Shown here in pieces: positions 2,364 to 11,770 of a stretch of 64,000 nucleotides of DNA. The stretch spans positions 248,001 through 312,000 of the forward strand of contig CANNDD010000004.1 in assembly GCA_947503285.1 (NCBI GenBank). The letters are read 5' to 3'. Source of the stretch: an uncultured Croceitalea sp. (lineage in GTDB: Bacteria; Bacteroidota; Bacteroidia; Flavobacteriales; Flavobacteriaceae). Below the pieces are notes generated by a model. The model made no database searches and had not been told where the DNA came from. It saw only the letters and a program-made list of their open reading frames with translations. The translations under genes were made by a program, and so were the position numbers. Position 1 is the first letter of the stretch. Each line of letters begins with the position of its first letter.

Positions 2364-2470
2364 CGTCTTTGAATGCGCCAAATAGCAGTGTTAGCCCTAC
2401 TTGACCACAAAACGATGCGCATTCACAACAATAATTTCGATTCGAGATACACTACCGCTACATTTACAAC

Positions 2471-2550
2471 GTAATAATCAAGTAAACGATTTTTCATTTT
2501 CATATAGTGTTCTCGTAAAAGAGCCTTGTTCAAAAGACAGGGCTCTTTTT
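2471..2550 (+). ncRNA. Putative small RNA, tandem copy 1
   Basis: The promoter-like TACATTTA at 2459-2466 fits the Bacteroidota -7 box (TAnnTTTG with the last base changed). TTTC lies 20 bp upstream where TTTG would be expected. Transcription would begin near the GTAATAA at 2471. The end is a terminator: 12 paired bases from AAAGAGCCTTGT (from 2518) with ACAGGGCTCTTT, a 7-nt loop, and a T-run to 2550. The predicted RNA is about 80 nt. No homologue or function is recognised. Confidence 0.6.
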
Positions 2551-2700
2551 AGTTTACGGGTATCGCATTGATAGTCAATTTTTAAGACAATAAAGTGAAA
2601 CCGAACTTATAACATTGTTAAAACCCCGATTAGACCACAAAAGGGTTAAAGTTCACAACAATAATTTCGATTCGAGATACACTACAGCTACATTTACACT

Positions 2701-2781
2701 GTAATAACCAAGTAAATAATTTTTTCATTTTCATATAGTGTTCTCGTAAAAGAGCCTTGTTCAAAAGACAGGGCTCTTTTT
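2701..2781 (+). ncRNA. Putative small RNA, tandem copy 2
   Basis: This unit is almost identical to copy 1: TACATTTA at 2689-2696, GTAATAA at 2701, the invariant TTCATTTTCATATAGTG segment at 2725-2741, and the same 12-bp terminator stem with T-run ending near 2781. Promoter, body and terminator are all duplicated, so each unit appears to be a separate transcription unit and not part of one long transcript. Confidence 0.6.
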
Positions 2782-2931
2782 AGTTTACGGATATTGCATT
2801 GACAGCCAATTTTTAAGGCAACAAAAGCAGAATTGAAATACAAAATTGTTAAAACCAAAACTAAACCACAAAAGGATTGAAGTTCACAACAATAATTTCC
2901 AATCGGGTGGTCATGGTAGTACTTTTACTAT

Positions 2932-3014
2932 GTAATAAATCAGAAAGTAAATTTTTTCATTTTCATATAGTGTTCTCGTAAAAGGGCCTTTAGTCGAAAG
3001 ACGGGGCTCTTTTT
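2932..3014 (+). ncRNA. Putative small RNA, tandem copy 3 (diverged)
   Basis: The -7-like box is TACTTTTA at 2920-2927, with TTTCC again at the same distance upstream. The body keeps the TTCATTTTCATATAGTGTTC segment unchanged. The terminator differs in sequence but still folds: one A-U pair becomes G-U, and the top of the stem becomes GTC-GAAA-GAC, a GNRA tetraloop hairpin. The structure is kept while the sequence drifts, which supports a functional RNA. Confidence 0.55.
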
Positions 3015-3192
3015 AGTTTAAATCCTCAAGACCCAAATTAAAAGAAGGTGGATGTTCTACCATGCAGCCCTAGTTTGGGATTCAACACGATGCCTATGCA
3101 ATCAGCAGGTATAGAATAGCATTTTTCTATTTTTAAGTTAGGATATTGTGACTTAAATGCAAAATGCGTTTCTTACGGATAAACACGACAAT

Positions 3193-10183: not shown

Positions 10184-10427
10184 AAGGGTATCGGTAATTT
10201 GAATTCGTAATTAGCAAACCTTACAAAATTATAAGATTTTTAAGCGTAAAGTTTATTCTTAAGCAGGAAATATTTCAAATACTATCAACAATTTTTATGT
10301 GCATTGGCGATAGGCCCCATTTGTAATGTTGATGATAAAAATTTTATAATAAAACCAATACCCATTTGGATTTTCGATTCTAAAAATGTATACTGAGGTC
10401 TTATATCCATTTAAACGAGAACAACGA

Positions 10428-11291
10428 ATGAGGCAACTAAAAATCATTAAGCAGGTTACCAACCGCGAATCCAAATCTTTAGATAAGTACTTACAAGACA
10501 TTAGTAAAATTGATTTAATAACTGCCCAAGAAGAAGTTGAATTAGCCCAAAGAATCAGGGAAGGAGACCAAATAGCCTTAGAGAAGTTGACCAATGCCAA
10601 CTTAAGGTTCGTGGTCTCGGTCGCAAAACAATACCAAAACCAAGGTTTAAAATTACCTGATTTGATCAATGAGGGTAACGTCGGATTAGTGAAGGCCGCC
10701 AAACGATTTGATGAGACCCGTGGTTTCAAATTTATATCCTATGCGGTTTGGTGGATCCGCCAGTCCATACTACAAGCTTTGGCCGAGCAGTCAAGGGTGG
10801 TTCGACTGCCGTTGAATAAAATTGGTTCCATAAACAAGATCAAAAAGACGTTTTCCTATTTGGAACAGGCCCATGAACGCCCACCTTCAGCGGAGGAAAT
10901 CGCAAAGGAATTGGATATGACCGTTACCGAGGTAAAACAATCATTGAAGAATTCAGGACGTCACGTATCCATGGATGCCCCCCTAAAAGAAGGGGAAACA
11001 TCAAATCTTTATGATGTAATGCGGGCCGGTGAGTCACCAAAACCCGATTACGATTTGATGCATCAATCCCTGAATACCGAAATCAACCGTGCGCTTGATA
11101 CGCTTTCCCCAAGGGAGGCGGATGTAGTGCGATTGTATTACGGTATTGGTGAACAACCTTCAATGACCTTGGAAGAGATAGGTTCTACATTCGATTTAAC
11201 CCGAGAGCGTGTACGCCAAATTCGGGAAAAAGCGATTCGAAAGTTACGGCATAGTTCCAAAAGTAAAATATTGAAAACCTATTTAGGATAG
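10428..11291 (+). CDS. rpoD: Primary RNA polymerase sigma factor (RpoD/SigA)
   Basis: The frame extends upstream to 10386, but flavobacterial RpoD starts MRQLKI, which places the start at ATG 10428 and gives 287 aa. Region 1.2 is [20 protein letters not shown], region 2 includes [27 protein letters not shown] and the melting segment [13 protein letters not shown], region 3 is at about 145-200, and region 4 is [25 protein letters not shown]. Bacteroidota primary sigma factors lack a long region 1.1, as here, and recognise TTG/TAnnTTTG promoters. It is followed by a perfect 19-bp inverted repeat and a strong terminator. Confidence 0.97.
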
Positions 11292-11351: not shown

Positions 11352-11354
11352 TAT

Positions 11355-11389
11355 AAAAAAAGGGCCTCTATTACTAGAAGCCCTTTTTT
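11355..11389. terminator. Bidirectional terminator between rpoD and microprotein operon
   Basis: The sequence AAAAAAAGGGC at 11355-11365 pairs with GCCCTTTTTT at 11380-11389, with an inner TCTA/TAGA pairing and a TTAC loop. A T-run follows the stem on both strands (six T on plus, seven on minus). It can therefore end rpoD transcripts and the convergent minus-strand microprotein transcript, whose last stop codon is 19 bp away. Confidence 0.85.
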
Positions 11390-11407: not shown

Positions 11408-11509
11408 TTAAGAACAATTCAATTGACTAATATTGTAGTTTACTAGAATCTCATTCAAATTTTGAATAAAATTTACGTAAGCACTATTTTCCTGATTTTG
11501 GTTTTTCAT
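11408..11509 (-). CDS. Microprotein 2 of a tandem paralogous pair (33 aa)
   Basis: An ATG at 11509 opens 33 codons: a polar start (MKNQNQENSA), the core YVNFIQNLNEIL at residues 11-22, and the tail VNYNISQLNCS. The core matches 8 of 12 positions of the upstream microprotein (YLAFLQELNEIL). In the shared LNEIL the codons differ only at synonymous positions (GAG/GAA, ATT/ATA, CTA/TTG), which points to selection on the protein. The gene starts 20 bp after the upstream stop, and the bidirectional terminator follows. An amphipathic helix is likely; function is unknown. Confidence 0.65.
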   Translation of the reverse strand: MKNQNQENSAYVNFIQNLNEILVNYNISQLNCS

Positions 11510-11529
11510 GGTAACTCTTTTAAGTAGGT

Positions 11530-11628
11530 TTACAGATAATCTAACTCTGCCAATTCATTTAAACTCAATATTTCATTCAATTCTTGCAAGAAGGCCAAGT
11601 ATTCTTCGCCGTAGGTATCATACAACAT
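11530..11628 (-). CDS. Microprotein 1 of a tandem paralogous pair (32 aa)
   Basis: The ATG at 11628 opens 32 codons. The peptide is acidic (MLYDTYGEEY at the start, LNELAELDYL at the end) with the core YLAFLQELNEIL at residues 10-21 shared with the following gene. Leu and Ile spacing fits one amphipathic helix. A Bacteroidota promoter lies 40 bp upstream and the pair ends at a terminator, so this is a compact two-gene operon of about 290 bp. No known family is recognised. Genes this short are normally missed by annotation. Confidence 0.65.
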   Translation of the reverse strand: MLYDTYGEEYLAFLQELNEILSLNELAELDYL

Positions 11629-11668
11629 GGTTAATAAATTTAAAAATTCGGGTCTGCTATTATGAACG

Positions 11669-11699
11669 TAAACTTATCATAAACATTATCACATGCCAA
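11669..11699 (-). promoter_or_regulatory. Promoter of microprotein operon
   Basis: On the minus strand TTG (11699-11697), 20 bp, then TAAGTTTA (11676-11669) matches the flavobacterial TTG-N19-21-TAnnTTTG consensus except for the last base. The predicted start near 11662 leaves a 5' leader of about 33 nt before the ATG at 11628. Confidence 0.55.
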
Positions 11700-11770
11700 T
11701 AATTTGTGGTGAACCTGCTAAAAGTTGTTGTGAAATTATTTGTAGGAATAGCCTGTCATTATTTACCCTG

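Follow-up and report, generated by a model that had tools for sequence, protein, structure and literature searches.

In the window (the whole 64,000-nucleotide stretch of uncultured Croceitalea DNA analysed here), two short open reading frames lie in tandem on the minus strand, at the positions given for them in the initial annotation (Table 1). Both contain the core Y-x-x-F-x-Q-x-LNEIL, as read from the sequence, and, as had been described, the codons of the shared LNEIL differ only by synonymous changes (ttg-aat-gaa-ata-ttg in the upstream gene, A, and ttg-aat-gag-att-cta in the downstream gene, B). An alignment of B proteins shows that the Q of this core is not kept in the B of other genomes. 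The promoter reads as claimed, with a TTG and TAAGTTTA separated by 20 nt. The terminator assigned to the end of the operon could also be recognized by eye, as an inverted repeat with an A-run and a T-run that begins 19 nt past the B stop codon; similar hairpins are visible by eye at the same place in other loci. A consensus terminator scanner did not list this repeat, and its sole terminator-like match falls elsewhere.

Table 1. Features of the AB locus, the sRNA copies and the regulator/kinase gene pair. Positions are those of the window unless a locus is named.
Feature	Position	Strand	Description
Microprotein A	11530..11628	-	32 aa (MLYDTYGEEYLAFLQELNEILSLNELAELDYL); ATG start; stop included
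Microprotein B	11408..11509	-	33 aa; paralogue of A; ATG start; stop included
Operator	11705..11734	-	TTCACAACA-N12-TTCACCACA direct repeat; LytTR-type 9+12+9 layout
-33 TTG	11697..11699	-	read from sequence
-7 box TAAGTTTA	11669..11676	-	28 nt past second repeat
Short 5' leader	11629..11664	-	holds CCCGAAT element; transcript start estimated
Bidirectional intrinsic terminator	11354..11389		by eye; between B and sigma gene
rpoD/sigA-type sigma paralogue (second copy)	10386..11291	+	convergent neighbour of AB
sRNA copy 1	2401..2551	+	operator 2401-2430; -7 box 2459-2466; RNA about 2472-2551
sRNA copy 2	2631..2782	+	operator 2631-2660; -7 box 2689-2696
sRNA copy 3	2862..3015	+	operator 2862-2891; -7 box 2920-2927
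LytTR regulator and TPR-HisKA_2/HWE kinase pair	L232:2029-5306		genes separated by two operators and a short terminated leader RNA

Judged by their conservation, A and B are genuine protein genes under purifying selection. Homologues with a conserved frame were looked for, and the same frames are present in several genera of the Flavobacteriaceae, including seven other genomes of the genus that hold both. At 80 named loci, which are the best 80 of 245 matches and thus lean toward close relatives, A is always 32 aa long and is always followed by B (33 aa at 73 loci, 34-37 aa at 7). Across 81 sequences, pN/pS in frame is 0.08 for A (pS 0.71, pN 0.056) and 0.28 for B (pS 0.76, pN 0.21); the shifted frames give 0.69 and 4.3 for A and 0.98 and 1.2 for B. 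Residues 1-11 of A are invariant among nine sequences from five genera. The contention that this arrangement is hard to obtain by chance is well founded: both frames are kept across genomes, with stable proteins and freely varying synonymous sites, and chance ORFs are ruled out by conservation and codon statistics.

A and B had been proposed to be a duplicated microprotein family that possibly forms a helix. The duplication is upheld by homology between the two proteins (hhalign E 1.4e-7, probability 94) and the helix by AlphaFold2 prediction. Modelled as single chains, A is predicted to contain helices at 2-6 and 8-23 (pLDDT 87, pTM 0.51) and B a helix at 3-31 (pLDDT 82, pTM 0.45). The helical moments are unexceptional, being reached by shuffles in 19% (A) and 7% (B) of cases. 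A is strongly acidic (pI 4.05), B is acidic too, and a Pfam/NCBIfam profile search returned 0 families for either protein at E<=10.

Strong A matches (E<=1.9e-12) are found in 73 of 397 genomes of the family, and the clade with the circuit described below includes Muricauda/Flagellimonas, Maribacter, Arenibacter and Croceitalea. Among draws of 246 genomes from the order and 247 from the phylum, the A matches at E<=0.01 belong to members of the family, apart from two order genomes with an A match at E 0.005-0.007 that looks like chance. Since these draws hold many genomes of the same family, they say little about whether A is absent beyond it. Three genomes (G087, G107 and G317) carry a divergent A with no B found beside it, B having been looked for beside A in the named loci and the fetched loci. 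G043 and G279 each have a distant A-like ORF (E 3e-4 and 2e-3), and both genomes are without the regulator and the operator sites introduced below.

Inspection of the AB promoter region identified an operator-like element that the initial annotation, too narrow in its view of the context, had missed together with the regulon that shares it; these provide a stronger clue than proximity to rpoD. The sites bound by LytTR regulators are paired 9-bp repeats, spaced by about 12 bp and placed directly ahead of the -35 element (passages of PMC6193735 and PMC2766830); some functional repeats depart from the consensus (PMC6193735). The AB promoter follows this layout, being preceded by a pair of 9-bp direct repeats with a 12-bp spacer. 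The consensus TTYACMACA-N12-TTYACMACA lies exactly 28 nt ahead of the -7 box, and in 8/8 genomes of the genus the repeat at this promoter fits without a single mismatch. Removal of five divergent A genes (L171-L175) from 91 upstream regions leaves 86 AB promoters, of which 72 differ from the composite of repeat and -7 box at no more than 3 of its 24 specified positions and the other 14 at 4-7; with one shuffle per AB promoter as a control, none came closer than 7 mismatches. A strict two-box expression matched only 23/91 upstream regions and a single TTCACNACA matched 64/91. The divergent A of G087, G107 and G317 lacks the operator (8-10 mismatches, equal to background) in genomes where the regulator and its sites are present. 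A therefore predates its place in the regulon, and its biochemical job is not defined by the regulon alone.

Genome-wide searches showed that the element recurs well beyond AB. Allowing <=1 mismatch, the repeat occurs at 13 sites in G000 vs 0 for the reversed control, and at 3 to 14 sites in seven other genomes of the genus vs 0 to 3 reversed. Of 38 distinct sites located through the repeat only, 23 have a -7 box at a distance of exactly 28 nt (AB 8/8, others 15/30); none of the remaining offsets between 0 and 69 accounts for more than 2 of the 38. The composite (<=2 mismatches) has 4-16 sites in each of the 17/17 tested genomes with strong A; nine of 11 other genomes have none and two have one. 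The reversed control found no site in 27 genomes and a single site in G046. The repeat also precedes some larger genes, for example a subtilase and a sulfatase; these lack the -7 box at the 28-nt distance, and their membership of the regulon is doubtful. Five order-level genomes contain 3, 0, 0, 2 and 0 repeat matches, and none of the four order-level matches that were retrieved is followed by a -7 box 28 nt on. One of the two genomes with one site is G157, which is without A. Its site, at locus L285, matches the operator with two mismatches and lies near a LytTR/kinase pair that is 34% and 31% identical to the pair described below; it could be a coincidence or belong to a remote relative of the system.

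The operator is shared with a family of small RNAs. The window contains three tandem copies between 2401 and 3015 on the plus strand, each with its own operator and promoter, and there is one further copy in G000. The RNA is roughly 85 nt long. Its 30-nt core (TTTTCATTTTCATATAGTGTTCTCGTAAAA) does not vary among the 12 copies aligned from the genus and precedes a terminator hairpin in which 4/13 pairs have changed on both sides; one of the 12 aligned copies, in L209, is without an operator. The core (<=2 mismatches; control 0) was found in 48/299 genomes of the family, a draw that did not include G003, and all 48 carry strong A. Only three strong-A genomes in this draw are without the core, the same three that yielded no B next to A. 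When loci were retrieved through the core alone, 20/20 had the composite with at most 4 of its 24 positions differing; the operator is also present at 39/40 distinct sRNA copies, though many of those loci were found via the operator, unlike the 20/20. Rfam covariance models gave 0 matches at the gathering score in the window and 10 loci. Pairing of the sRNA core was in weak excess for the kinase start region (z -2.6), with z -1.7 for the regulator (10 loci each) and -0.2 for the sigma gene over 76 loci. Action of the sRNA on the AB mRNA was considered and rejected, as no excess pairing is seen (z +1.0). One variant core, TTTTCATATAGTGTTCTCAAGTTAG, lies behind operators at L289 in G087, a genome with A, no B beside A and no sigma-paralogue match.

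A candidate regulator is encoded next to some of these sites. This LytTR response regulator (Pfam Response_reg 1.1e-20 and LytTR 8.4e-18) is paired with a gene for a TPR-HisKA_2 kinase, and in six genomes of the genus a short terminated leader, preceded by the operator layout, lies between the two. The regulator adjoins operator sites in 12 genomes from 7 genera (G000, G001, G003-G006, G116, G258, G194, G136, G107 and G087), with the kinase seen in 11 of the 12. An ortholog with 74-100% identity is present in 17/17 tested A genomes vs 0/21 others (E<=1e-60). Layout, neighbourhood and co-inheritance thus point to the adjacent regulator as the likeliest activator of AB.

Other putative members of the regulon are also small. 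A third microprotein, C (33-35 aa, ...VYRNxFxxGxxxLxKKLFML and variants), is found behind the operator layout in G001, G002, G003, G005, G133 and G256; the sites retrieved from G000 showed no C behind them. Its loci are L216, L217, L231, L244, L288 and L304, with the pattern ...VYRN.F..G...L..KLFM, and the L216 copy has no Pfam match. In other genera, further RNAs driven by the operator (L249, L250, L278, L287 and L293) contain the motifs CCCAAAT and CCTACTT in repeated form; at L249 and L278 these RNAs form arrays with copies about 300 bp apart. A short element, CCC[AG]AA, lies within 70 nt 5' of A at 73/91 loci vs 28/287 control ORFs (of any kind, at least 200 aa long); at 47/80 loci it is found between A and B. 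By eye, it also precedes C and is repeated within other operator-driven RNAs of G008, G213, G256 and G040. A common RNA-binding factor might recognize this element; the simpler interpretation is a conserved context of the start site.

Coding function of A and B together with membership in this regulon is very likely, and it is likely that AB is a paralogous helical microprotein operon that serves as one output of the LytTR two-component system. Because A and B share a switch-like promoter with the sRNA family and the two-component gene pair, these elements probably form one signalling circuit rich in tiny products. The LytTR regulator would bind the repeats and would activate AB, a direction suggested because the second box abuts the -33 element. 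Less firmly, A and B may be short helices that dock on a larger protein through a Y-xx-F-hydrophobic-xx-LNEIL face. The likeliest partner would come from within the circuit, either the kinase or the regulator in a feedback role, perhaps bound by an A:B pair. Feedback on the two-component system is a tentative suggestion, and the ranking of partners is weak, with the sigma paralogue weakly placed second after the kinase or regulator. A more speculative joint reading, which we hold with considerable doubt, envisages a two-component regulon of marine Flavobacteriaceae whose best-supported outputs are tiny: the sRNA copies, further sRNAs and no fewer than two families of microproteins, A/B and C. 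In it, A and B would be dedicated co-effectors or feedback elements, and the element CCCAAAT...ACCTA, shared by the AB leader and some sRNAs, would be read in both by one RNA-binding protein for which the sRNAs act as sponges.

An alternative role for A and B is suggested by their neighbour. The gene initially called rpoD is a second rpoD/sigA-type paralogue, 82% identical to the ordinary copy on contig C7. A and B might bind this paralogue in an anti- or co-sigma role for which the convergent pair has been retained, a scenario that we consider possible but unlikely. In its favour, the paralogue (list cut at E<=1.3e-163, with five matches of 82-85% identity and E 4.5e-162 to 4.9e-161 set aside as ordinary rpoD) occurs in 67/397 family genomes, all 67 of which carry strong A, and a sigma-gene match lies beside A at 80/80 named loci (best 80 of 245). 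These matches are mostly 88-98% identical, with lower values at L116 (84.9%), L113 (87.4%) and L125 (partial, 57.6%). Adjacency is nevertheless only partly informative, since the helicase beyond the sigma gene is conserved nearly as well (75/80 named loci, best 80 of 245); the genes on the other side of A/B match at 11-23 of these same 80. Position next to this gene was thus correctly noted, and the meaning attached to it stands only in part. Six strong-A genomes have no full-length paralogue match: at E<=1e-160 none was found in G165, which has A and B, or in G087, G107 and G317, which have A, while G180 carries the gene split in two and the G334 assembly is a fragmented MAG. In G287 and G254, moreover, A and B are kept together away from the sigma gene. 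The sigma factor is not upheld as an obligatory partner, because some genomes have A (in one case A and B) without the paralogue; a dedicated anti-sigma factor, found only with its sigma, is likewise rejected on G165, G087, G107 and G317.

Three further explanations are less probable. The chance that a different LytTR protein or some other regulator binds the repeats, leaving the adjacent one a bystander, is small: each genome has 22-70 first-look response-regulator candidates, so other receivers abound, yet the sites adjoin this particular regulator, usually with its kinase, across genera, and its ortholog tracks them through the tested genomes. Still less probable is that the ORFs are mainly leader- or uORF-like, with the transcript rather than the peptides mattering. 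The ORFs are very short, they belong to a regulon with several sRNAs, and CCC[AG]AA is enriched before A; against this, both frames are conserved as protein while synonymous change is free, and among the window ORFs no larger minus-strand gene follows B ahead of the terminator. LytTR systems often control peptides, and two small adjacent genes could in principle encode a toxin-antitoxin pair or secreted signals. This is very improbable for A and B, which are paralogous and acidic, with a near-invariant A at the same locus clade-wide and no signal peptide or membrane segment apparent by eye. A microprotein operon under the adjacent LytTR system remains our preferred reading.

Our literature search found nothing naming these peptides, this sRNA or this regulon, and what appears to be new is the microprotein family and its apparent membership in a regulon of small transcripts. 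A pair of 32- and 33-codon ORFs thereby becomes a testable circuit with one operator, a candidate regulator, and several sRNAs and microproteins. To our knowledge, little of the post-transcriptional regulation in Bacteroidota has been mapped, and in this case the sRNAs come with a candidate regulator. Sda and MgrB are short proteins embedded in regulons that act on a kinase; A and B resemble them as short, putatively regulon-embedded proteins, for which a kinase is only a candidate partner.

Comparison with described systems reveals parallels and differences. The LytTR operators of HdrRM/BrsRM, SilAB and AgrA, as presented in passages of PMC6193735 and PMC2766830, are similarly promoter-proximal 9-bp direct repeats about 12 bp apart, with the regulator gene adjoining the site, and SilCR provides an example of LytTR-linked peptide control (from the same pair of sources). 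By eye, TTYACMACA shares only an ACCAC part with the published ACCACTTAT-type repeats in the passages of PMC6193735, and the system identified here differs in its Bacteroidota -33/-7 promoter, its sRNA and microprotein outputs and its TPR-HisKA_2 kinase. The FopS paralogous sRNAs of Bacteroides (PMC11697453) are likewise multi-copy RNAs with a conserved stretch in Bacteroidota; compared by description only, they differ in having 14 members and a link to RbpB, and the FopS passages mention no microproteins. Passages on the Flavobacterium psychrophilum transcriptome name Rfp18 and other sRNAs (PMC9723704), which can be set beside the present sRNA by name only. The CiaRH csRNAs of streptococci (PMC3091779) offer a parallel in which a single two-component system drives several related sRNAs, though with a different regulator, phylum and RNA sequence, whereas in the present case microproteins share the promoter layout.
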